DNA from: Candidatus Zymogenaceae bacterium
GTDB lineage: Bacteria; Desulfobacterota; Zymogenia; Zymogenales; Zymogenaceae
NCBI GenBank assembly: GCA_016931225.1
Contig: JAFGFE010000006.1
Span: forward strand, 62,001 to 126,000
Direction: 5' to 3'
DNA: 64,000 nt
Below, in pieces: positions 4,640 through 63,541 of the stretch (its first letter is position 1; the number at the start of each line of letters is the position of its first letter). The position numbers and the translations under genes were made by a program. The notes beneath the pieces were generated by a model, which saw only the letters and a program-made list of their open reading frames with translations, was not told where the DNA came from and searched no databases.

Positions 4640-4964
4640 ATATTTTACCTCGCTCTTCCGATAATTCTTTTGATTCGGCATCATCCGGCATCGCCCGAAT
4701 GCGCTTCACAAGATCGGTGACGCCTTCCGGACGGTCGATGAAGACGGTCGGGAGATCTGAAAATTCGTGTGTCCCCGCGCACCGCACGTGACAGCCGCAG
4801 ACGACCAGCAGCAGATCTCCTTTGCATTCTCTTCCGCCCGCGGGTACAAAGCGTGCCGTACCGAAAAGACGCTCCTCCAGCCGCCGCACCAAGGCGACCC
4901 GGTCATACAGGGGATTGCACCCCCCGCAGTATTTCACCACAATTGTTACGGGTTCGTCACTCAT
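4626..4964 (-). CDS. Small CGGC-motif protein of the 4-hydroxybutyrate operon
   Basis: 112 residues, not assigned to a named family. The start ATG at 4964 overlaps the stop of the dehydratase gene by 8 bases, so translation is probably coupled. The N-terminus reads VTIVVKYCGGCNPLYDR, a CxxC pair after a beta strand as in thioredoxin-like or [2Fe-2S] ferredoxin-fold proteins. Three more cysteines follow (REC, VVCGCHVRC). Placement inside the operon suggests a redox or cluster-maturation partner for the dehydratase; this is inference. Confidence 0.75.
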   Translation of the reverse strand: MSDEPVTIVVKYCGGCNPLYDRVALVRRLEERLFGTARFVPAGGRECKGDLLLVVCGCHVRCAGTHEFSDLPTVFIDRPEGVTDLVKRIRAMPDDAESKELSEERGKIYGRH

Positions 4965-6405
4965 CGATGCCGGCAAGCTTCCTGGCCCGCTTCATCTTTT
5001 CACTCATGTTGACGGAGCGGGAGATCATGATGCGCTGGGCTTGGGGCGAACCGGCGCCGTGCATCGATTCGGTCAGATACCCCACGGCCGCCGTGCCCAG
5101 CGTCAGGTTCTCGATAAGGCGCAGGATCCGAAGCCGGTGTTCCGTGGGCGCACCAGCAATCCCTCTGAAGTATTTCTCCATCCACTTCCCGACCGCCTCC
5201 GACCGCAGGTCCGCCTCGGATGGGAGCGTTACCATCAGCCCTCCGGCGATATCCTGGGCCAGCCGGGCGATCTCGTAGGGAAACCGGGTGACGTTCTGCT
5301 TGTGTACGTTGGCAAGGAGTGTGTTGACGCAGTAGGTTCCCGAGGGCTCTCTGCTCCCCTCCGACGCGCAGGCGATGCACCCGCAAAAAAGGGTCTCGTT
5401 GAGGTGGTTCATCTCGATGAGCTTGTCCTTGATGTGCGAGGCCCGGGCCACCCCGTTGTACTCGGCCGCGGCGGCCGCGGCGCCGATGAGGACGTCACCC
5501 ACCCCCACCTTGCAGGCGTAGCTCTGGCGGTGATAGGACGCGAACCGTTCCACCAGATCGCCGGCGAATTCATACTCCCCCAGCATGAAGATGCGCTCGT
5601 TCGGGACGAAGACGTCGTCGAAGACGACCAGCGCCTCGTGCCCACCGAAGAACTGATTCCCCCGATCCATCATTCCCGCTTCGAGCTTTCGGGTGTCGCA
5701 GGATTGCCTGCCCATGATGTAGACGATACCGTCCGTATCGCTGGGGAGGGCGAACGACACGGCGTAGTCGGTGTCCTCCTCTCTGAGCGCGATGGTGGGC
5801 ATGACGATGATCTCGTGGGAATTGACGGCCCCGGTTTGGTGGGCCTTCGCCCCCCTGACCACGATCCCGTCGGTCCGCCGCTCAACCACACGCAAAAAGG
5901 CGTCCGGGTCCGGCTGCTTGTGGGGGGGGAGTCCCCGATCTCCCTTCGGGTCGGTCATGGCGCCGTCGCACATCAGGTCGTTTTCCTGCACAAAGGCGAG
6001 GTAGTCGAGGAAGCGCCGGTGGTAGTTCGTGGCATGCTTCTGATCGATGTCGTAGGTGACGATGGAGAGGGCGTTGAGGGCGTCCATTCCCACACACCGC
6101 TGAAAACAGCAGGCGGTATGCGCACCCAGGAGGCGTCCCATCTTACTCTTTTTGACCAGGTCCTCGGTGGATTGATGAATATGACAGAATCGATTGATTC
6201 TATTCCCGGTCAGGTGGGAGACCGCCGACATCAGATCCTCGTGCTCCGGCCTGTGCAGCAGATCGTACGTGGCCGCCACCGCCTTCATCGACGGGCGGAT
6301 GATGGGGTCGTCCACCACGTTATGGATCCGCTCGCCGAACATATAGACGACGAGATTGAGCCTTCTCAATGATTCCTCGTACGCCTTTCCGTCCATGAGG
6401 GTCAT
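4957..6405 (-). CDS. abfD: 4-hydroxybutyryl-CoA dehydratase / vinylacetyl-CoA isomerase
   Basis: 482 residues, full length for the family. The enzyme dehydrates 4-hydroxybutyryl-CoA to crotonyl-CoA using FAD and an oxygen-sensitive [4Fe-4S] cluster. Visible ligand candidates are C100 and C104 (HTACCFQRCVGMDAL) and H292 with C298 (YHRQSYACKVG). Other family stretches are GRLLGAHTA, RGAKAHQTGAVNSHE and WMEKYFRG. As I recall, the Clostridium aminobutyricum enzyme has its His and last Cys ligands seven apart; here they are six apart, one residue short. The start has GGAG nearby. Neighbours upstream encode the CoA-transferase and the alcohol dehydrogenase of the same pathway. Confidence 0.92.
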   Translation of the reverse strand: MTLMDGKAYEESLRRLNLVVYMFGERIHNVVDDPIIRPSMKAVAATYDLLHRPEHEDLMSAVSHLTGNRINRFCHIHQSTEDLVKKSKMGRLLGAHTACCFQRCVGMDALNALSIVTYDIDQKHATNYHRRFLDYLAFVQENDLMCDGAMTDPKGDRGLPPHKQPDPDAFLRVVERRTDGIVVRGAKAHQTGAVNSHEIIVMPTIALREEDTDYAVSFALPSDTDGIVYIMGRQSCDTRKLEAGMMDRGNQFFGGHEALVVFDDVFVPNERIFMLGEYEFAGDLVERFASYHRQSYACKVGVGDVLIGAAAAAAEYNGVARASHIKDKLIEMNHLNETLFCGCIACASEGSREPSGTYCVNTLLANVHKQNVTRFPYEIARLAQDIAGGLMVTLPSEADLRSEAVGKWMEKYFRGIAGAPTEHRLRILRLIENLTLGTAAVGYLTESMHGAGSPQAQRIMISRSVNMSEKMKRARKLAGIDE

Positions 6406-6533: not shown

Positions 6534-7850
6534 TTAGAGCCATCCGTAAAGGCTTCGGCACTCCCGCTCAAGGGAATCTCGAAATTTCGGAGCGGCGATA
6601 TTGATGAGTGCCCGGGCCCGCTCCCTCATTGTCTTTCCCCACAGGTGTGCGACACCGTACTCGGTCACCACGTAGTCCACGTCGTTTCGCGACGGGGTTA
6701 CAGCCTGCCCAGGCAAAAGTGTAGCCACGATGCGGGATACCTCCCCTCCTTTCGCGGTGGCCGGAAGGGCGATAATGCTTCTTCCCCCCTTCGACGCCGC
6801 GGCCCCGCGTATGAAATCGACCTGTCCCCCAACGCCGGAGTACTGCCGGGGGCCGATGGACTCCGACGAGGCCTGTCCCAGAAGATCGACGGAGATGCTT
6901 GAGTTGATGGCGACCATATTATCGTTCTGGGCGATGACGCACGGATCGTTCGTGTAGTCCACCGGATGGGCGTCGATCATCGGATTGTCATCGAGCCATC
7001 GGTAGAGCCTCTCGGTTCCCATGACGAATGTGAGGACAATCTTTCCCGGATGAAGCGTCTTCCTGGCCCCCGTGATCACCCCCTTCTCCGCCAGGGTCAT
7101 CACGCCGTCGGATATCATCTCCGTGTGGATTCCCAGATCCCTCTTTCCTCCCAGGAATTCGAGGACCGCTTCCGGTATCGCCCCGACGCCCAACTGCAGG
7201 CAGTCCCCATCCCGGATGAGTTCCGCAACGTGTCTTCCGGTTTTCTCCGCCACCTCGTTGATGCCCGGTGGGGTGATGGTGTAGAGCGGAAGTTCGCTCT
7301 CTACGAAGTAATCGATATCGGTCACCGGGATTCGTGAGCAGGGACCGGTTCGGGGCATATTCGGATTGACCTCTGCTATGGTAATTTCCGCGGCTCGGAC
7401 GGCCTGGATGGCGTAGTCAACGCTGATACCCAGACTCACGAAACCATCATTATCCGGTGGAGAAACCACGATCATCGCCACATTCACGGGCAGCGCCCCG
7501 TCCTGAAAGAGCCGGGGAACCTGATGAAAATAGCAGGGGGTATAATCCGCCGTTCCCTCCCACACTGCCTTTCTGGTGGCGGTGTTGGCGAACATGCCGT
7601 TGAATCGAAACGAATCTTTGTATTCCGGCAGGCAGTAGCGGGCCTCCCCTACGGTGAACACGTGGACGATCTCTACGTCCCGAAGCTCGTCCGCTCGATC
7701 AATCAGGGCATCGATGAACAGCCGCGGCTCCCCACAGGCATGGCCGGTCACCACCCGATCTCCCGATTTTACAACCCCGACCGCCTCCCGGGGCGTCGTC
7801 CGCCTCTTCTCGTAGTGCTCCTTCCAATCGCTTACTGTTAATTCCAACAT
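6534..7850 (-). CDS. abfT: 4-hydroxybutyrate CoA-transferase / acetyl-CoA hydrolase family
   Basis: 438 residues from the ATG at 7850, which has AGGAG 8 bases upstream; a TTG three codons earlier is less likely. The protein belongs to the acetyl-CoA hydrolase/transferase family: VVSPPDNDGFVSLG in the N-terminal domain, QLGVGAIPEAVLEFL, then GIHTEMISDG with the likely catalytic Glu near residue 244, and IIALPATAKGG with TEYGVAHLWGKTMRERA near the end. It would move CoA from acetyl- or butyryl-CoA to 4-hydroxybutyrate, feeding the dehydratase encoded next. Confidence 0.88.
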   Translation of the reverse strand: MLELTVSDWKEHYEKRRTTPREAVGVVKSGDRVVTGHACGEPRLFIDALIDRADELRDVEIVHVFTVGEARYCLPEYKDSFRFNGMFANTATRKAVWEGTADYTPCYFHQVPRLFQDGALPVNVAMIVVSPPDNDGFVSLGISVDYAIQAVRAAEITIAEVNPNMPRTGPCSRIPVTDIDYFVESELPLYTITPPGINEVAEKTGRHVAELIRDGDCLQLGVGAIPEAVLEFLGGKRDLGIHTEMISDGVMTLAEKGVITGARKTLHPGKIVLTFVMGTERLYRWLDDNPMIDAHPVDYTNDPCVIAQNDNMVAINSSISVDLLGQASSESIGPRQYSGVGGQVDFIRGAAASKGGRSIIALPATAKGGEVSRIVATLLPGQAVTPSRNDVDYVVTEYGVAHLWGKTMRERARALINIAAPKFRDSLERECRSLYGWL

Positions 7851-7879
7851 GACATTCAACTCCTGAGAGAAATGTTTGC

Positions 7880-9022
7880 CTACCGGTGGTAGGCGTCGGT
7901 ATAGATGGTCCTCGCGTCGTCCAGATCGATCTTTCGCGGATTGTTGGACAGAAGCCGTGTTACCTGTATGGCGCCGTTCGCCATCTCCTCGATGGCGGAT
8001 TCGGGGATATCAAGGGCCTTGAGATTCCTGGGAATGTCAAGATCGTCCGAAAGGGCGTTGATACACGTCACGGCCGTCTCAGGACCGATGTCGTCTATAT
8101 ATTCATTGTTCATGGCCCGGGCCAGCTCGATATACTTCTTCTCACTTCCCGCCATATTATATTTCATGATTACCGGAAGCATGACGCTGTTGGCGAGACC
8201 GTGGGGAATGTGAAAAATCCCCCCCAGCGGATATGCAAAGGCGTGCACCGCCGTCACTCCGGCGTTCCCGAAGGCGATGCCCGCCAGCAGACTTCCCAGC
8301 ATCACGGCCTCCCTCGCTTCTCGGTTCTATCCGTCCGCGAAGGCATCTCTCAGATGTTTCGATATCAGCCGCACCGCACGGAGGGCGACGGCGTCTGAGA
8401 AATCGGTGGCGTTCACCGAGGTGAAGGCCTCAAGGGCGTGGATCATGGCGTCCATGCCGGTATACGCGGTCACCGACGGCGGCATCTTGACGGTAAATTC
8501 CGGATTCAACAGTGCAACGCGGGGGATGAGCATCCGGGAGGCGACCCCCTTTTTCATCCGCGCCTCTTCGTCGGTGAGGACGGCCACCGGGGTCACCTCG
8601 CTACCGGTGCCGGCGGTGGTGGGGAGGACGATCGTCGGGAGGCTCGGCTTCTTCAAGAGTTCGATGCCGATGTAGTCACGCACCGATCCGTCGTTTTCGA
8701 CCAGCGCGGCGGATACCTTCGCCGCATCAATCGAACTGCCGCCGCCCAGGGCGATCACCGCATCCACCCTCTCCGACCGGGCAAGCGCCACCACCTCTTC
8801 CACAACATCGATACTCGGATCCGGCTCCACCCGGTCAAAGAGGACAATGCGCCGATCGGCCGCATCGAGGATTTCCCTGACCTGGCCGTAGATGCCCGCA
8901 TCCACGATGCCCGGGTCGGTGACCACCAGCACCTTTTCAGCGGACATTCCCTTAAGTGAGGGTATGAGCATATCCAGAGATTCCGTACCGATATGTATCT
9001 CGGGAAGAGGCAGTATTTTCAT
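7880..9022 (-). pseudogene. Iron-containing alcohol dehydrogenase (4-hydroxybutyrate dehydrogenase-like) interrupted by in-frame TAG
   Basis: Two pieces in the same frame form one type III alcohol dehydrogenase of about 380 residues: 9022-8327 (231 codons) and its continuation to 7880, divided by a single TAG at 8329-8327. Without the stop the join reads DAFADG-stop-NREAREAVMLGSLLAG, which fits the family, where a Lys or Arg is usual at the stop position. The N-terminal part has the GGGSSIDAAK and PTTAGTGSE nucleotide sites and the first two metal ligands (GMDAMIHALEA); the other two His ligands (AVHAFAYPLGG, HIPHGLAN) lie after the stop, so the truncated product should be inactive. Nonsense mutation, base error and UAG readthrough are all possible. 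Confidence 0.85.
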
Positions 9023-21060: not shown

Positions 21061-21101
21061 TTGACATATAATCATGTGTTGTGTATAGTGAACAATGTTC
21101 A
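21061..21101 (+). promoter_or_regulatory. Sigma-70 promoter with overlapping operator for the dehydratase operon
   Basis: TTGACA at 21061-21066 and TATAGT at 21084-21089 are spaced by exactly 17 bases, an excellent sigma-70 promoter. The palindrome TGAACA-A-TGTTCA at 21089-21101 covers the likely transcription start, so a repressor could block initiation there. The leader to the first start codon is about 190 bases. Confidence 0.72.
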
Positions 21102-21288
21102 GCATAGTATATACTGTATCATCTATTTAAATAAATCGTCACCCTGTCAATTTTTTATACTGCACGCTGTATGTTCTGTATGCGTATCATCGTTAGACCG
21201 AGAATTTCTCTTCGGCATGTATCGGTATCGCTTCTCAAACACGGCGAATCATACAGATTATATTCCACATACAGTCATCGGAGGATAT

Positions 21289-22359
21289 ATGAAAAACGTT
21301 CTGTATGCGTGTTCATACGTTCCCGTTGAAATCGTGACCGCCTGCGGTCTCACTCCGGTCTGGCTTTTGCCCGAAGGCGAGCCGCAAAACGCCGATCAGT
21401 ATATCCATTCTCTCCTCTGTCCTTACGTGAGAAAGCTCTGCGCCGCCGTCATGTCCGATATCGCAGACATGCCGGTTGGAGTAATCCTGACCAACTCCTG
21501 CGACGGGATGCGACGCCTGGCCGACGTCATCCGTGTCTATCGTCCGGACCTGCCCCTCCTTTTTCTGGATGTGCCGCACAAGACGGATCCCGAATCCGTC
21601 GATCTGTTTGCAGTGCGACTCCGCCAATTCGCCGATAAACTGGCATCGACTTTTCAGGGGAGACCGGCGGACGACGACGCCCTGTGGCGGTCGATCGGCA
21701 GGCACAACAGCGTCCGCCTCGACATGCAGGAGCTTTTCATGCAGCTCAGAACGGCGACTCCCATCGTCTCGGGCTCCGAGGTTTTCCAGTTTTCAAAGGA
21801 GGCGATCACATCGGACATCGACGACTTCCTCCCCTCACTGCATCGTTTCCTTGCACACATCAGCGGGCGAAAACGGTCGATGGCCTCCCGGCCGGCTTCT
21901 CGGATCATGATTTATGGAAACATCCTGACCACACCGGATCTTGTCCGAATTATTGAAAATTCCGGCGCCGTCGTGGTGTCTCTGGATCATTGTTTCGGCG
22001 AGCGTTGCTTCGATCTTCCCGTCTCAACCGACACCGATTCCCCCTATACCGCCCTCGCCCGGCGATACCTCACCCGTTCTCCCTGTCCCCGCATGGGGGG
22101 GCTTTTGGACCAGCGGATAGTCGACATCGCATCCCTGGCCGAAGAAGCACGGGCCGACGGCGTGATCTACAGCAGTGTCATGCATTGCGACCATTTTCTC
22201 TACGACGCACCCTCTACCATCGGCAGCCTCAAGGGACGGGATGTGCCGGTTCTTTTGCTTCGGCACGACGGTGAATGGAATGCTCTTGGACAGGTCAAAA
22301 CCCGTATCGAGGCGTTCCTTGAGACAATAGAGAATCGAAAGGTGCACCGCTATGCTTAA
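21289..22359 (+). CDS. 2-hydroxyacyl-CoA dehydratase subunit (HgdB/BcrC family), first of pair
   Basis: 356 residues from the ATG at 21289, which has a GGAGG site 6 bases upstream; the longer frame upstream reads through the promoter and leader. Family marks are CSYVPVEIVTACGLTPVWLLPEG at the N-terminus, a cluster-ligand-type TNSCDGMRR and late cysteines GERC and VMHCDHFLYD. Such subunits bind a [4Fe-4S] cluster and, with a partner and an ATP-driven activator, remove water from 2-hydroxyacyl-CoAs or reduce aromatic CoA esters. The partner gene overlaps its end by 8 bases. No activator gene is in the window. Confidence 0.85.
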   Translation: MKNVLYACSYVPVEIVTACGLTPVWLLPEGEPQNADQYIHSLLCPYVRKLCAAVMSDIADMPVGVILTNSCDGMRRLADVIRVYRPDLPLLFLDVPHKTDPESVDLFAVRLRQFADKLASTFQGRPADDDALWRSIGRHNSVRLDMQELFMQLRTATPIVSGSEVFQFSKEAITSDIDDFLPSLHRFLAHISGRKRSMASRPASRIMIYGNILTTPDLVRIIENSGAVVVSLDHCFGERCFDLPVSTDTDSPYTALARRYLTRSPCPRMGGLLDQRIVDIASLAEEARADGVIYSSVMHCDHFLYDAPSTIGSLKGRDVPVLLLRHDGEWNALGQVKTRIEAFLETIENRKVHRYA

Positions 22360-23572
22360 AACCATGCTTTCCGAGATGAAAAAACGGTCTCGTGCGGCGC
22401 TGGAAAAACGGTGGAGTCCCCGATTCTTTTGGTTTTCCCAGTGGGCGGAGACGATGCTTCGAGCCTTCGAGAAGGATATGCCGACAGTATTCACCACTTA
22501 TTACACATTTCCGATGGAAATCCTGGCCGCCTTTGATGTCGCCCATTTTGATTTCGAGCTGGCCGCTTCCATGCTCGCATCAACGGAGCTTGCCGAGCCC
22601 CTGCTGGTGCGTGCCGACGACCTGGGATACGATACAGACATCTGCTCATTTCATCGGGCGAGCATGGGCGCCCATGATATGAGCCTCTACCCGGAATCCA
22701 AACTGTTTCTGACCACGTCGTCATTCTGTAACGGCAAGTGGAAAGTCAACGAGGTCCTGAGCAGATCTATGAATGCGGAGCCCTACCTGGTATCCATCCC
22801 CCAGGATATGTCCGTCGAATCGATTCGGTATGTGGCGACCCAGCTCAGGGAGGCTGCGGAAAAGATCTCCGTGGTTTCGGGACAGGCCTTTGATATCGAC
22901 AGGCTCAGGGAGGCGCTTCGTATATCAAATCAGGCTCGAACGGCGCATCTGAGGATGCTGGAGTGCCTGAAACACCGTCCCGCCCCCTGGGGCGGCATTC
23001 AGTTGATGCAATATTCAATATTTTCCCGGATGTTTGCCGGAACGAAGACCCAAAAAACCATTCACGAAGCCTTCGCCGATGCGCTTGGGGAGCGGATCGA
23101 ATCAGGAACGCTTCGACCGGAAAGTAGAAGGCTCTATTGGTTCGCCTGGGTTCCCACCTATCAGACGAATATCTTCGATACCTTCGCCCGATATGAAACC
23201 GCCGTCGTTCATTTTGAAACCCTGAACGTCTTCTGGGACGAACTGGACGAGAGGAATCCGTTTGAATCCCTGGCGCTGAAATGCCTCCAGGATCCCTTCC
23301 AGGGGCCGACGGAACACAGGCTCTCGGGGCTTTCGGGCCTCTTCGAAGATTTTTCCATCGACGGGGCCGTATTGTTCGCCACTCCGGGATGTCGCCACTC
23401 CAGCGGTGCATACGGCATCATCAGGGACGCCGTGGTCGATCAAGGACGTCCCTTCCTCATGCTGGATGTCGACATCGGTGATCCCAGGAAATATGCGCCC
23501 GAACAAACCGGCATCAGGCTGGAGGGATTTATGGAACTTCTTCACAACAACGAACGGGCTTTTCCGTCGTGA
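22352..23572 (+). CDS. 2-hydroxyacyl-CoA dehydratase subunit, second of pair
   Basis: 406 residues. N-terminal TYYTFPMEILAAFDV, DICSFHRASMG and TTSSFCNGKWK are the usual cysteine-bearing stretches of 2-hydroxyacyl-CoA dehydratase D-components. A late FATPGCRHSSGAYG supplies the third cysteine region, and PFLMLDVDIGDPR closes the fold. It overlaps the first subunit gene by 8 bases, implying coupled translation and a heterodimer. Whether the substrate is 2-hydroxyglutaryl-, lactoyl-, phenyllactyl- or aromatic CoA cannot be told. Confidence 0.85.
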   Translation: MLKTMLSEMKKRSRAALEKRWSPRFFWFSQWAETMLRAFEKDMPTVFTTYYTFPMEILAAFDVAHFDFELAASMLASTELAEPLLVRADDLGYDTDICSFHRASMGAHDMSLYPESKLFLTTSSFCNGKWKVNEVLSRSMNAEPYLVSIPQDMSVESIRYVATQLREAAEKISVVSGQAFDIDRLREALRISNQARTAHLRMLECLKHRPAPWGGIQLMQYSIFSRMFAGTKTQKTIHEAFADALGERIESGTLRPESRRLYWFAWVPTYQTNIFDTFARYETAVVHFETLNVFWDELDERNPFESLALKCLQDPFQGPTEHRLSGLSGLFEDFSIDGAVLFATPGCRHSSGAYGIIRDAVVDQGRPFLMLDVDIGDPRKYAPEQTGIRLEGFMELLHNNERAFPS

Positions 23573-26655: not shown

Positions 26656-27741
26656 CTATTTATCTTCTCCCACCTTTTTGTCAATTCTCAATGTTTCCAA
26701 AATTCTTCCAAAATTTTTTTGATCTCTGGTATCTACCAAACTCTCTATCGCCTCTTTCATATGATCCGGCTGAGGGTGGGAATATCTCTTGAACATTTCA
26801 AAGGTTTTATGACCGGAGAATTCCATTATAGTCCGTATATCTACTTTTGCTTGCTGCATGTCGGTTATAAAAGTATGCCTGAGATCATGTACCCTGGCAT
26901 AAGGAATCCCGGCACGATGAACAGTCGCGGCGAAACCCTTTTTCATTGTTGCCATCTTATTCCCATTGTGCGATATTATCCAGTCACATTTCTGATCTTT
27001 CTCGGCTTCTAATAAAACTTGAAGCAGATGACTGTTTATAGGGATAGTACGAGAATCACCGGTTTTGCTCGTGCGTACAAATAAAGAGCCGTTCTTGAAA
27101 TCTATATCGTCCCACCTCAGATTCAATATCTCACCGTGCCTCATACCCGTGTTCAATGCCAACTCGATAAACAGACGTGTCCTGGGATTGGCATTTTCAA
27201 GCAGCATTACTTTTTCTCCGGCTGAAAGAACTCGTACCGGAGGCCGATCCTCCTTGAAATAACGAACGTGCTTAAATGGATTTGTCTCAATATACCCGAC
27301 CTTCTCACACCAGGACGTAAAAGCCTTGATTTTTATGATATCAATATTTGCCGAACTCTTTTTGTTTTTTTTCAAACGCTCATGTTTATATTTTTCGAGC
27401 ATAAAACCGCTCAGATTTTCCATGTCTAAATCACCGACATACTCAAGAAAACGGTTGAGTACAAGATCGTCCTGCTTGTAGGTGTTTTGGGCTTTATTCT
27501 CTTTCGAGTAATTCAAATACTCATGAATCAACTTTGATATTCTGTACTTCTTCTTTTTCTTAACATACTTCCCCGCATAGATCTCATTCACCCTCGTGTT
27601 CATGAAATGTCGTGCCTCATGGATCGTTACACCATGCAATCTCTTCTTCGACCCCATGCTCACGCCATCTACCATCACACGGTAATCAACCTCATAAACG
27701 GTGTTGCCGTGCTTATCTTTCAGTGTTTTGATTCGGGGCAT
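26656..27741 (-). CDS. int: Phage tyrosine integrase
   Basis: 361 residues from the ATG at 27741. The N-terminus (about 1-60) is an arm-binding-like region, followed by a SAM-like core-binding domain (YRISKLIHEYLNYSKENKAQ). The catalytic domain has Arg in NTGMRHGEILNLRW, Lys in RTSKTGDSR, HDLRHTFI, GHKTF and the nucleophile Tyr in MFKRYSHP. This is the full set for a tyrosine recombinase of phage-integrase type. Its place at the border of the element and pointing towards the chromosome is typical for the integrase of a prophage. Confidence 0.95.
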   Translation of the reverse strand: MPRIKTLKDKHGNTVYEVDYRVMVDGVSMGSKKRLHGVTIHEARHFMNTRVNEIYAGKYVKKKKKYRISKLIHEYLNYSKENKAQNTYKQDDLVLNRFLEYVGDLDMENLSGFMLEKYKHERLKKNKKSSANIDIIKIKAFTSWCEKVGYIETNPFKHVRYFKEDRPPVRVLSAGEKVMLLENANPRTRLFIELALNTGMRHGEILNLRWDDIDFKNGSLFVRTSKTGDSRTIPINSHLLQVLLEAEKDQKCDWIISHNGNKMATMKKGFAATVHRAGIPYARVHDLRHTFITDMQQAKVDIRTIMEFSGHKTFEMFKRYSHPQPDHMKEAIESLVDTRDQKNFGRILETLRIDKKVGEDK

Positions 27742-27771
27742 GGTCAATAGCCTTTGATTCGTATTTCGTCA

Positions 27772-57458: not shown

Positions 57459-59348
57459 TTAAAACAACGCCCCTTCCCGCTTGATACGCCAGCGGATAAT
57501 CCCGTGATACGTCACCGGCACCCCCTGGATGTCATAATCAAGATATGACGCCCGCGCCTTCGCCACATAAAATTTCTGGGCGAGCGGAATCTCCCCGGTC
57601 AGGACGTCATACTCGCTGATGCTGATGCTCTGAGGCTCGTACTGTGTACCGTCCCTGTCGGTCACCAGAACTTCATGGGTTCCCACCCGCCCGTTTGTAA
57701 ACCTCGTAATGCCGTCGGTATCGGTTTTCGGACATATTTCCACTGCATCCGGATCATCTTTCCATCCAGGCATTTCACCCCACTGCTCCCACGCGATGAT
57801 CACGCTGCAACCGGGCAGCGGCGGAAAGGTGGTTTCACCCTCTCCCTCCACCTTTTTCTGCACCAGGATCTTCCCGCCAAAGGGCTCGGCAATGCCGTAT
57901 TGCGTCTCGCCGGTGACGATGGTTTTTCCGTAGACCGTCGCGTAATACATGCCGCTGATCGGATCCACCCGGATGGAAAGATGATCGCTCTTCACTATTT
58001 CGTATTCCAGCTCCTCGCCGTCGTTCGGCTTCTGGAGCAGGTTCGATATCACGCGCTTCTTCTCCGTCGGCGTCCAGGTAAACTCCCCGGGCCCAATCAA
58101 CGTCTCCCGCCACTCGCCCAGCCCCGCCTCAGCGCCCTCGTCGTCGCTCCCGGATCCGCCGCCGGCGGACGTCCCCTTCACGCCGGTCCCGTCCGTCCCG
58201 ACGACCACCGAACAGACGCAGGACTCCTGCCCCGCCCGGCATACCACCACGGCCTCCCCCTGCTTCGACGGGTCAAACTCCACCGTGGCGATCCCCCCGG
58301 TCGCATAGGTCACATAACAGAGCATCTTCGAGAGCGCCACCTGCTCGCCGTCGTCCCCCAAAGCCCACAGCGGCTCATCCAGGATGATCGTATTGCCGTC
58401 CACCGTCGCCCCATCCGCGAAGTTGTAACCGCTCTCATCCTTGGTGGTCCGCACGGATATCAGCTCCGTGATCGGGTAATAGGTGTTGACGGTGATGTCG
58501 TTGGCGCTCCAGTTTTCCTCGTTCTCTATGGTGTCCGTCTGGGTCTGGGCGCTGGCCGCGGAGAGGACTCCGATCACATCGGCCCCCGGGTAAAAGCTGA
58601 AATAGACATTCTTACCGTCCGGAACCGGGAGATCGTCCGGGCCCGTCACCCGGGCAATAATCTGCGACGTCTCATTCATGTCGATGTTGCCGGGGTTTGC
58701 TTCCGCGGTGATCGCCCCCACGGTCGCGTCGTTGATGGTGATCACGAGATCATCGTCCACCCCCATCAGGTTCCCGGTCACGGTGGCAAGCCCGCCGCCG
58801 GACGCCTGGGCGGTCAGTGTCGTCTCGGCAACGCCGTTTACCACCGGCACCTCCGTCGGCGCGATGTCCGCAAGCTGGTCCACGGAAAAGCTCACCGTCT
58901 CCGTTCCCTCGTACACCACGATATGCTCGACGTACTCCATATCGACGGCGGTGGTGATTTTCCTCCCCTCCCAGAACGCCACAGGGATCTCGTCGCCCAG
59001 CTCGTCGTCGCCGATCTTCACGTACACCCGGGGCGGCGTTCCGGGGTCCTCCAGTATCCACGCGGACACCGTTATCTCGTTGACGGGCCAGTAGGGCGTC
59101 ACCGTCTCCCGCCTGCTGGTGGGTGATATCCGATCCCCCGAGGCGTACCGGCACTCGGCCCACACCCTGGTCGCGTCCACGCCGTTGCTGTCCAGGTTGC
59201 TCCTGTTGGAAAACAGCGTGATCTGCGGCCTCCCGTCGCTGATCACCCCGCGATCGTCGTCCTCAACCCGCACCCGGTTGTCCCCCACCGGCTGGGTCAC
59301 CTTCTGATCAAGAAGGATGATATCGGCCTTTTCGTCGTATCTCGCCAT
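57459..59348 (-). CDS. Large phage structural protein with Ig-like repeats
   Basis: 629 residues, beta-rich throughout. Repeated bacterial Ig-like stretches (VVNGVAETTLTAQASGGGLA, ITAEANPGNIDMNETSQIIA, KPNDGEELEYEIVKS), a Gly/Ser-rich linker (SAGGGSGSDDEGAEAG) and a C-terminal domain (EPQSISISEYDVLTGEIPLA). Such proteins decorate the tail or capsid. It sits next to baseplate-like genes, so tail surface is likely. Confidence 0.65.
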   Translation of the reverse strand: MARYDEKADIILLDQKVTQPVGDNRVRVEDDDRGVISDGRPQITLFSNRSNLDSNGVDATRVWAECRYASGDRISPTSRRETVTPYWPVNEITVSAWILEDPGTPPRVYVKIGDDELGDEIPVAFWEGRKITTAVDMEYVEHIVVYEGTETVSFSVDQLADIAPTEVPVVNGVAETTLTAQASGGGLATVTGNLMGVDDDLVITINDATVGAITAEANPGNIDMNETSQIIARVTGPDDLPVPDGKNVYFSFYPGADVIGVLSAASAQTQTDTIENEENWSANDITVNTYYPITELISVRTTKDESGYNFADGATVDGNTIILDEPLWALGDDGEQVALSKMLCYVTYATGGIATVEFDPSKQGEAVVVCRAGQESCVCSVVVGTDGTGVKGTSAGGGSGSDDEGAEAGLGEWRETLIGPGEFTWTPTEKKRVISNLLQKPNDGEELEYEIVKSDHLSIRVDPISGMYYATVYGKTIVTGETQYGIAEPFGGKILVQKKVEGEGETTFPPLPGCSVIIAWEQWGEMPGWKDDPDAVEICPKTDTDGITRFTNGRVGTHEVLVTDRDGTQYEPQSISISEYDVLTGEIPLAQKFYVAKARASYLDYDIQGVPVTYHGIIRWRIKREGALF

Positions 59349-61493
59349 CTATTCCTCGATATACAGCATGTCCTTTATCACCAGGACGTCCCCGCCGCCG
59401 CTCCGGGCGTAGCACCCGTCCACTTCACAGAGCGTCTTGATCACATCCAACGGATACTCGTTTTCCACCTCCAGGGCGCCGGCCAGGATCGCAAAGTCCG
59501 GCACCCGGTAGTCCAGAGAAAGACCGCACGCATCGCACAGTTCATTGATGACCGCATATCTGGTGGTCACGGCGTTCCAGACCCGCGTGATCTTCGACGC
59601 ATAGGGATAATAGAGCAGCGCCGCCCGGTTCCGCCCCCAGATCCGCCCCGTCGTCTCCCGGGAGCGCTCCGAGAGGTTGTCGTTGTCCCAGAAATAGGTG
59701 TCGTAGAGGTCGCCATCGATATACACGGCGATCCGCGGCTGACTGAAATCGCTGTCCGCCCGGGTCCGCATCCGCCCCATCGCCAGCCGATATTCGTCAA
59801 CAATGGAAAGACGGACACTGTTGGGCGCCGTGTCGGAAGCCTCGGTCAGCTCCACCGAGTCCACGGCGTCGGTCCAGTCCTCCCCGTCAATGATCACGAA
59901 GAACGTCCTCACCGCATACGTCACGCCGTCGATGGTCACCGCCGAATCAATGACGTCATAGGTCTCGCCCCCCACGGTCACCGTGCCGTCGGTTACGGGG
60001 TAAGTAGTGCCGCTGATGTAGATGAACCCGTCGGCGGTGTACGTCTCTGTATCTTCGCCGATGGAGTTGACCAGGAGCAGATCCGCGCTGTCGTACCTGA
60101 CGCCGATGTCGTTGATAAGCTCCAGGTCCGCCGACGCCCGGGAACGGATGGCGTTCTCCAGCAGCAGGGAATCGCCCCCCTCGTGCCGCGTCTGCTGGCC
60201 GCCGGGCCCCACCAGGCGGTTGACCAGCTCCAGCGCCGGCGCGCTCTCCACCACCGTCCGCCCCCAGATCATGTCGTAGATGCACGACCGGTTGATCAGC
60301 TTGATGGTGCCTGAGTTGATTTTCAGATTATCGATCTCGTATACATTACTGGCGGCGTTTGAATCGCATCTGAGCATGAAAACAACATCATTGTTAAATC
60401 CTGAGATATCATTTCCAATCTGCACCCATGATGACCCATTCCAGTAAAATCCCTTAAATGTCCCCTCATCCCGAATAATTCGTAATTTCCCCGATGTGTC
60501 TGAAGTGTTTACTATTTCATCTCCGGCTAACGACCCACCGACATATACTACAAAATAGTATCTGTGAATCGATGATGATTTTTGAAGCGTAATAATAACC
60601 GAATTGTTTGCAGTCAAACGACCATCATTCACTGATATGAGATAAAACATTATTGCTCGCACGGCACCGGTGCCGGCATTCAATGTTGAGCAATTAAAAT
60701 CAATCTGAACGTCAAAATCACCAGAAAGTCTTAGTGCTCGATCAGACCAAACCCGTCCCTTCATCTCGGCACCGCCACTATCAAAAATAAATTTATCATC
60801 CAGGGAAAAAACATTACTCGATTGTTGCCACTCATTATCCACGCACCAAAATATCGGCTCAATCTGCGTCCCGTCAAACCCGTAGCCTGTGGAGAACGGC
60901 TCGTCGGTGAAGGGATACCCCGCCACAAACCAGGTGTCCTCGTGGACGTTCGCCCGGTACGGCTCGATGGGATCCGTCTCGATCAGGGTGCCGCCACCGT
61001 CATCAAACAGCGTCAGCGTCACCTTCCGGTCGCCGTCCTTTCTCATCACCAGCCGGAACATTCCTGCCTGGGTAAATCCGCTGGCGGAAAAGGGCACCGT
61101 GTCCGTCGTCCAGGCCCCGGCGGGGCTCCAGGCGTATACGTCTCCGGACGTGTCTCTCACGCACAGATGCACCGCGTCCCATCCGCAGCGCCACGCCCAC
61201 ACCCGGCGGTTTTCCCGAAACTCGGCCAGCGTCATGAGGCCCGGCTGTTCACTCCCGGCCACCACCGCCCCCATCACGCCCACGGTTTCGGTGGGGATCA
61301 TGTCGATGGTGATCTTCCAGGATGCGGGGAGTTTTTTCTTCGAGTCCAGCATCCCGGCGTTCCCGACATCGTTCTCGATCGCTATCAGGCCGGACCCCCC
61401 GGAAAATACGTATGTCGCCCCGGTGTCGGAGATCTCATGCGCCAGGCCGATGTCCGACCCGATAAAATTTTCCTGAAAAATCACGCTTCCCAT
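59349..61493 (-). CDS. Large tail/baseplate protein with lectin-like and hub-like parts
   Basis: 714 residues. The N-terminal 400 look like two concanavalin/LamG-type beta sandwiches (WKITIDMIPTETVGVMGAVV; DFDVQIDFNCSTLNAGTGAV). The C-terminal 200 (VELTEASDTAPNSVRLSIVD, IAVYIDGDLYDTYFW, YPLDVIKTLCEVDGCYARS) resemble tail hub or baseplate proteins. It may link a baseplate to sugar binding. Directly adjoins the Ig-like gene. Confidence 0.62.
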   Translation of the reverse strand: MGSVIFQENFIGSDIGLAHEISDTGATYVFSGGSGLIAIENDVGNAGMLDSKKKLPASWKITIDMIPTETVGVMGAVVAGSEQPGLMTLAEFRENRRVWAWRCGWDAVHLCVRDTSGDVYAWSPAGAWTTDTVPFSASGFTQAGMFRLVMRKDGDRKVTLTLFDDGGGTLIETDPIEPYRANVHEDTWFVAGYPFTDEPFSTGYGFDGTQIEPIFWCVDNEWQQSSNVFSLDDKFIFDSGGAEMKGRVWSDRALRLSGDFDVQIDFNCSTLNAGTGAVRAIMFYLISVNDGRLTANNSVIITLQKSSSIHRYYFVVYVGGSLAGDEIVNTSDTSGKLRIIRDEGTFKGFYWNGSSWVQIGNDISGFNNDVVFMLRCDSNAASNVYEIDNLKINSGTIKLINRSCIYDMIWGRTVVESAPALELVNRLVGPGGQQTRHEGGDSLLLENAIRSRASADLELINDIGVRYDSADLLLVNSIGEDTETYTADGFIYISGTTYPVTDGTVTVGGETYDVIDSAVTIDGVTYAVRTFFVIIDGEDWTDAVDSVELTEASDTAPNSVRLSIVDEYRLAMGRMRTRADSDFSQPRIAVYIDGDLYDTYFWDNDNLSERSRETTGRIWGRNRAALLYYPYASKITRVWNAVTTRYAVINELCDACGLSLDYRVPDFAILAGALEVENEYPLDVIKTLCEVDGCYARSGGGDVLVIKDMLYIEE

Positions 61494-62267
61494 CTATGTG
61501 TACATCCGTATTTCGCCGATCTTGGTAAATATATTGTTAGGAGACGAAAAGTAATTTCTCTCTATATGGATCGTCCATATATTGCCGGTATGCCCGGAAA
61601 TATTCGCCACCACCAGACTGTTGTCATCCGGGTGCGTGCCGCTATAAACTTCCATACCATCACAGAAAATATAAAAAGTTTTTACATAGCTATGTGTCTC
61701 AAAAACCGGCAAAAACTCTATGCGTGTGATCGTCACTGGCCCGGAGAAATGATATCTCCACTCCGCACTCACCGTCGTCCACGACTCAAGCCCCAAGGAT
61801 TTCCAGTAGGTACTGTCGTTCCCATCCAGCGGTAATGTTTTGGTATCATCCCCCGACGACACGCTGATCTTGTCCGCATTTGCTTCTTCTCCGCCGTATC
61901 CCATCGTCGGCGTGCCGCCGCCGCTTTCTCCCCCGCCACCGCCGCCGTACACCTTGGCCCAGGCGCTTTCAAATTCAGTCAGGGTTCCTTCTCCCAACGT
62001 CTTTTCGTCGTCGCTGTCAAGGGTGATAACATAAAGCCCCGGATCAATCCGCGGCTTTTCCACGGTGATCACATACGGCCCCGGGTTGCTCTTTTTTTGA
62101 GGGTTCTCGGGGACGGTGACCACCCACAACCCCCTGGAATCCTTCACCGCCCCGTCGGGCGAAATCCCCAGGGCCTTCAGTTCGTTCAGCCAGGCGTTCA
62201 GCTTCTCGGCGTACTCGGGATCGTTTACATCGACGGTAAAATAGAGCTTCAGGTCTAATAATCCCAT
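61494..62267 (-). CDS. Tail protein with discoidin-like C-terminus
   Basis: 257 residues from the ATG at 62267, overlapping the upstream gene end. A Gly-rich linker (GGGGGGESGGGTPTMGYGGE) separates an N-terminal domain from a C-terminal F5/8-type C (discoidin)-like sandwich (ESWTTVSAEWRYHFSGPVTI, FIFCDGMEV-like strands). Likely a tail or fibre part that binds a carbohydrate. Confidence 0.55.
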   Translation of the reverse strand: MGLLDLKLYFTVDVNDPEYAEKLNAWLNELKALGISPDGAVKDSRGLWVVTVPENPQKKSNPGPYVITVEKPRIDPGLYVITLDSDDEKTLGEGTLTEFESAWAKVYGGGGGGESGGGTPTMGYGGEEANADKISVSSGDDTKTLPLDGNDSTYWKSLGLESWTTVSAEWRYHFSGPVTITRIEFLPVFETHSYVKTFYIFCDGMEVYSGTHPDDNSLVVANISGHTGNIWTIHIERNYFSSPNNIFTKIGEIRMYT

Positions 62268-63541
62268 ACCGCCTTCAACCCGAATCGATTCGGCGACTGG
62301 CGGCCGCACGCCGCCGGGCCGATGTTTTTCACCCATACGCCGGCGTATCTGCCGGCGGTGTCAAATATCAGGGTGTCGCCTGTTGCGAAGCTCCCCGTCC
62401 ACCCTTCCTTTGGAATGATGAAGTACACGCCGCCCCAGTGCGCCGGGGCAATGTTATTGGTAATCGGCCCGGTATAGACCACACCACAGAGCGCCCCGGA
62501 AATGGAGATTTCCGTGCTCGACGTAAATGTCACCGTCCAAGAATCGCCCACCGTGCCCGCGCCGTTCGGATCGCCCAGTATCGGGTACAATGAATTGTTG
62601 AAGCTCCCGCCGCTCGCCGCCACGGTCATGGTGACGCCCGAGACCTCAGCCTCCAGCGTTCCCACGGGCACGCCGCAGGCCACAACCGTCCCGTCGCTCC
62701 CGGTATGAATATCGGTATCGAACCCCAGCTCGCTCACGGCGTCGCCCGCGATGATCTGGAAGGTATGATGCTTGTAGTACAGATCGTGGGTGATCACCAC
62801 CCTCCCCGCGTCGTCGCCCGCCGTGATCTCGCACCCGGTCACGCCGCTTGCCGCCCCGTTGATGGCCGCCGCCACCAGGCTTGCTGTGGTGTGGGCCGAC
62901 GTAAAGGACACCGTAAAGGTGTATGCCCCGTCCACCCGAAAGGTCAGGTACGTTCCGTCCAGGCTGAAGGTCTCGGTCTCGGTGCCTGTCATGCCCGCCC
63001 TCGTCTTAACCGGATAGGCGTACTGAGTCACGGCGCTGGCGGCGGTCAGGGTCGCTTCCGTGTCGTCCCAGGCCACCCCGCCGCTTTCCGCCAGGACCAG
63101 CCTTTCGTACTTCCCGTTTTCCCGGTTGTGCAGGAACATCATGGATGCGTCAAAGATGGTGTTCGCCGCCTCGAACTCCGCGATAAAGGACGACGCCCCC
63201 ACGTTCGCGGAAGCCGCCAGCTCCCCGGCGCCGGCCCACTCGGAATAGGCGCTCGCCTCCAGTTGTGTGTCCTGTGCGGTGCCGATGTGCGTCAGGAAAT
63301 AATCATCCCCTTCCGATATCCGGTTCTGATACACCCACCCGTTGGCGAAGGGATCCGCGCCCTCCGGCCGGCAGAACGCCTTTCGATACAGCTCCCAGCC
63401 GTCGATGCGGGTGTCCTCGTCGATGTCGGGGAAAAGATTCTGCGCGACCCCCGTCCGGATGTCATTGTTGGTAATCGCCCCGCCGCACGAGGACCCGCCG
63501 GATTCCACCGCGGCGTGCTTCCACTTTACGTTCAGACTCAT
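62255..63541 (-). CDS. Phage structural protein (tail-associated)
   Basis: 428 residues, Ala/Thr/Gly-rich with many beta strands (ETFSLDGTYLTFRVDGAYTF, TVSFTSAHTTASLVAAAING). The N-terminus has a small cysteine cluster (GGSSCGGAI). No named family; composition and place indicate a tail structural protein. Overlaps the next gene by 13 bases. Confidence 0.6.
   Translation of the reverse strand: MSLNVKWKHAAVESGGSSCGGAITNNDIRTGVAQNLFPDIDEDTRIDGWELYRKAFCRPEGADPFANGWVYQNRISEGDDYFLTHIGTAQDTQLEASAYSEWAGAGELAASANVGASSFIAEFEAANTIFDASMMFLHNRENGKYERLVLAESGGVAWDDTEATLTAASAVTQYAYPVKTRAGMTGTETETFSLDGTYLTFRVDGAYTFTVSFTSAHTTASLVAAAINGAASGVTGCEITAGDDAGRVVITHDLYYKHHTFQIIAGDAVSELGFDTDIHTGSDGTVVACGVPVGTLEAEVSGVTMTVAASGGSFNNSLYPILGDPNGAGTVGDSWTVTFTSSTEISISGALCGVVYTGPITNNIAPAHWGGVYFIIPKEGWTGSFATGDTLIFDTAGRYAGVWVKNIGPAACGRQSPNRFGLKAVWDY

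Follow-up and report, generated by a model that had tools for sequence, protein, structure and literature searches.

A single in-frame TAG in an iron-containing alcohol dehydrogenase gene of Candidatus Zymogenaceae bacterium: a probable recent nonsense pseudogene

Introduction

The pyrrolysine proteins of anaerobes include MtmB, MtbB and MttB, and in these genes an in-frame TAG is followed by a conserved continuation. The same appearance can be produced by a different cause. In single-nonsense pseudogenes of bacteria, one stop interrupts a gene that is otherwise full-length and conserved within its family; the arginine decarboxylase genes of Chlamydia trachomatis are an example (PMC2720952).

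The gene described here encodes a metabolic enzyme of an anaerobic bacterium, Candidatus Zymogenaceae bacterium (assembly GCA_016931225.1, contig JAFGFE010000006.1), and it resembles both systems. It shares the in-frame TAG and the conserved continuation with the pyrrolysine proteins, and the single stop in an otherwise complete gene with the chlamydial type of pseudogene, from which it differs in that the lesion is known from sequence alone. It lies in a stretch of 64,000 nucleotides, which is called the window below. An earlier note on this DNA had offered three readings of the TAG: a sequence error, a fresh pseudogene, or UAG decoded as pyrrolysine.

The interrupted gene

The alcohol dehydrogenase (ADH) gene occupies 7880..9022 on the minus strand, comprises 380 codons, and is recognized by profile matches and gene order. 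Frame reading and the alignment of relatives confirm that codon 232 (8327..8329, minus strand) is a single in-frame TAG in an otherwise intact alcohol dehydrogenase, as had been claimed. The ATG at 9022 opens the frame in which it lies and the TAG at 7880-7882 closes it; no further internal stops or frameshifts occur. The 231 codons before it (8330..9022, minus strand) encode the NAD-binding domain, with a match to the iron-containing ADH family (PF00465, E 4.2e-49), and continue into profile positions 1-47 of ADH_Fe_C. The 148 codons past it (7883..8326, minus strand) match positions 49-194 of the same profile (PF25137, E 5.8e-36). Only one profile position is skipped at the TAG, which fits one changed codon without an indel. 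Thus, the flanks are in frame and family-like, and the gene is one codon away from a normal one, both as the earlier note had stated. Codon scores are gene-like on either side of the TAG (0.39 before, 0.33 after), and the chance of 147 open codons past it from base composition alone is about 0.002.

When the frame is read through the TAG, a full-length domain match is obtained together with four Asp/His positions, each conserved in 30 of 30 relatives. Two of them, Asp191 and His195, precede the stop; the other two, His260 and His274, follow it. By comparison with FucO-type enzymes, these would be the four metal ligands, and on that assumption the stop does remove two of the four, as had been predicted. 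The gene resembles the iron-containing ADH family in that the profile matches run up to the TAG and resume past it, and it differs from the family by the break at codon 232 and by an Asn at codon 173.

Relatives at the TAG site

Two sets of relatives were aligned. In the closest set, all 28 non-self places were used. In the wider set of 30, loci were available for 29 of 36 non-self places (7 were left out) and L032 was added; this set includes L025, a paralog from the organism's own genome. L003 and L004 are common to both sets, which leaves 56 distinct relatives. None of these 56 has an internal stop in the matched stretch; a TGA flagged in L021 proved to be the natural end of that gene. The position of the UAG is not conserved among the homologs. 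The residue at codon 232 is variable, both in the wider set (K 11, D 5, S 4, Q 3, T 2, N 2, E 2, G 1) and in the closest set (E 8, S 7, A 3, D 3, Q 3, T 2, N 1, K 1). The statement that Lys or Arg is usual at the site was not borne out: Lys occurs in 11 of the 30 wider and 1 of the 28 closest relatives, and Arg in none of either set.

Nearer copies were also sought. A near-identity search for the gene in plasmids gave no match. One scan of genome contigs, which may omit near records, returned a single relative of 34% identity (L032), and the genomes scanned for ADH relatives included none of the same genus.

Search for UAG decoding

The earlier note had proposed a search for pyl genes. PylS, PylD, PylB and tRNA-Pyl were sought in the organism's own genome (G000), a draft of 3.73 Mb in 46 contigs that is 99% complete, and none of them was found. 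The one weak PylS match reaches 26.7 bits against a cut-off of 178.15 and is a LysRS by eye. The weak PylD match reaches 21.4 bits against 150.05; it appeared to have one TAG inside, but by eye it is Trk-type, and the TAG ends a TrkH-like gene that precedes a TrkA-like gene. No PylB was found at E 1e-30, and the tRNA-Pyl pattern had no matches. The Rfam tRNA model gave 46 matches, with 44 over the cut-off; for the two weak ones, ARAGORN gives one tRNA-Sec (TCA) and no tRNA in the other. No CTA anticodon occurs among the 45 tRNA genes found, a list that is incomplete and lacks Cys and Ile anticodons. A general CTA-tRNA pattern hit four places, none of which is a CTA tRNA by ARAGORN. On these own-genome searches, a suppressor tRNA for UAG was rejected. 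Selenocysteine at the TAG was rejected as well, since the anticodon of tRNA-Sec is TCA and the site is never Cys in the 56 relatives. The tRNA-Sec itself lies at L083:99-196 (G000:C10), so that some of the organism's genes may use UGA for selenocysteine.

Release factor 1 (RF1) is present in the genome, over its cut-off. The gene call for the window was crude and missed several genes, such as the dehydratase gene described below; among the 34 gene-like ORFs that it kept, 10 end in TAG, the ADH fragment included. Together with RF1, these TAG-ended genes uphold the earlier argument against wide UAG recoding. The three MttB-family genes of the genome contain no in-frame stops.

As a control, PylS was sought in 395 sampled genomes of the phylum. 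Five of them (G161, G278, G298, G339 and G354; loci L114-L123) have it over the cut-off, and all five also have PylB over the cut-off and exactly one match to the tRNA-Pyl pattern; ARAGORN names tRNA-Pyl in 2 of the 5 PylS loci. One of the five, G298, holds an ADH relative (L086), which has a sense codon at the TAG site.

Conservation and age of the lesion

The closest copy of the ADH, L085, is 60% identical, with 57% identity before the TAG and 65% after it. The mean identity difference (after minus before) was compared with that of pairs of intact genes. Among the 28 closest relatives, the window gave 0.02 and intact pairs gave 0.04; among the 30 wider relatives, the values were -0.04 and -0.03, respectively. 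The window is slightly below the intact pairs in both sets and well inside one standard deviation. In a relative-rate comparison with L097 and L100 as outgroups, window-only and L085-only differences in the ADH numbered 32 to 26 (19 to 17 before and 13 to 9 after the TAG). For the neighbouring CoA-transferase gene, the counts were 33 to 28, and this resemblance indicates no general acceleration of the ADH. Conservation is much the same on either side of the TAG, and the part past it has changed no faster than in L085, so the stop is either young or an error. Synonymous divergence between the window and L085 (dS, NG86) is saturated and consequently gives the stop no date.

The gene thus presents one disabling change with the rest conserved, with one reservation. 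Across 104 columns in which 26 orthologs show no variation, the window has 12 departures and L085 has 3. The same test applied to the 26 other orthologs gave 0 to 4 departures of 104 to 108. None of the window's 12 departures has a negative BLOSUM62 score, and two are also changed in L085. These departures hint at somewhat weaker constraint on the window copy; such a relaxation, or else a change of function within its lineage, may lie behind them. One of the 12 is at codon 173 (8504-8506, minus strand), where the window has Asn and 56 of 56 relatives have Asp.

The 4-hydroxybutyrate module

Two genes lie downstream of the ADH on the same strand, both as open, full-length frames. A 4-hydroxybutyrate CoA-transferase occupies 6534..7859 (minus strand; best solved relative 3eh7, E 1.8e-139), and a 4-hydroxybutyryl-CoA dehydratase / vinylacetyl-CoA isomerase occupies 4957..6405 (minus strand; 1u8v, E 5.9e-207). 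Another genome, G157, has the three genes in identical order and orientation, and its ADH (locus L113), the closest copy introduced above, is intact. Identity between the window and this module is 60% for the ADH (57% before and 65% after the TAG), 66% for the CoA-transferase and 79% for the dehydratase. Neither half of the ADH, scanned separately, attains an NCBIfam equivalog cut-off, so the substrate is read from the gene context: with the shared gene order and the 4-hydroxybutyrate neighbours, the interrupted ADH is probably the module's 4-hydroxybutyrate dehydrogenase. Three further iron-containing ADH genes exceed the family cut-off in the genome; their frames, 395 to 412 codons long, are open. 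Functional redundancy is therefore possible, and these genes may make the loss of the interrupted copy bearable.

Other features of the window

Single TAGs in frame are also found elsewhere in the window. At 57459-62336 (minus strand), three ORFs of 280, 714 and 629 aa lie in the same frame with single TAGs between them (61494-61496 and 59349-59351) and an ATG directly after each separating TAG. For the middle ORF, a match to PHROG 6079, a phage tail family, was obtained (E 1.5e-6), and the three are probably separate abutting phage genes. A probable prophage lies at 26656-63541 and includes an integrase (26656-27747) and phage-like genes at 59-63.5 kb. In addition, two adjacent genes at 21061-23572 (plus strand) match the 2-hydroxyglutaryl-CoA dehydratase D-component family.

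Discussion

The interrupted ADH is best explained as a recent single-nonsense pseudogene, with a probability of roughly two in three. A recent single-base nonsense mutation would have hit the dehydrogenase gene of the 4-hydroxybutyrate module. RF1 would read the UAG as a stop, and the resulting 231-residue fragment, deprived of the second pair of metal ligands, would be expected to be inactive. The lesion would be too young for the remaining gene to have decayed. The TAG, the intact frame on either side of it and the conservation of both halves are observed, and no UAG-decoding genes were found in the assembly; that the TAG is present in the organism, rather than in the assembly alone, is what we infer. 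No new mechanism is needed, and the case is an ordinary one of an already known kind.

The main rival is an error of sequence or assembly, or a minority variant in the consensus, with the organism's gene intact. This is possible, though on the evidence rather unlikely. A consensus error would look the same as a real stop, and the lack of decay fits a misread intact gene equally well: both halves are conserved without acceleration, the two downstream genes of the module are open and full-length, only a single codon is changed, and the assembly is a draft of 46 contigs. However, the site lies about 70 kb into a contig of 160 kb, away from its edges, and single-base errors in deep short-read assemblies are generally rarer than real nonsense changes. 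The Asn at codon 173 also suggests that some real change may have happened in this gene. Fresh pseudogene and sequence error give the same picture, so both of these earlier readings remain, and of the three only pyrrolysine has fallen. The presence of pyrrolysine in the phylum, seen in the five sampled genomes with PylS, speaks for a decoded UAG, as does a pyrrolysine tRNA reported from marine Deltaproteobacteria (PMC8318568). Nevertheless, the pyrrolysine reading is contradicted, and hardly any weight is left to it or to decoding by another suppressor tRNA. The organism's genome lacks PylS, PylD, PylB and the tRNA-Pyl pattern in the searches made, whereas all five PylS genomes have PylB and the pattern; neither the tRNA genes found nor the general CTA-tRNA pattern yields a CTA anticodon; the MttB-family genes are free of in-frame stops; and even a PylS genome has a sense codon at the site. 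Unlike the known pyrrolysine proteins, the interrupted gene is no methyltransferase, its site is variable, and no relative has a TAG there.

The TAG might also be bypassed, or the ADH might be made in two pieces, through low-level readthrough of UAG or through a restart that gives two assembling chains. The TAG would then be a tolerated working feature of a split or tuned 4-hydroxybutyrate dehydrogenase. A suitable layout exists in the sequence: past the TAG, the eighth codon is GTG and the ninth is ATG, and both stand behind a Shine-Dalgarno-like run, GGGAGG; the C-terminal half, moreover, is still conserved. The same letters, however, encode a stretch conserved in the family, and the layout may be incidental. 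The RNA past the TAG folds no better than shuffled sequences (z -0.24; 78 of 200 shuffles equalled or surpassed it), the break separates the two pairs of conserved ligands, and no stop appears in the matched stretch of any of the 56 relatives. Such a bypass or restart is accordingly judged highly improbable.

The reading as a recent nonsense pseudogene has little significance beyond this genome. It does illustrate that, before the decoding genes have been sought, an in-frame TAG followed by conserved sequence is not evidence for recoding. This caution applies even to a phylum with some carriers of pyrrolysine genes. Should the stop be real, the dehydrogenase step has probably been lost from this strain, while the genes for the CoA-transferase and the dehydratase of the module are still open.
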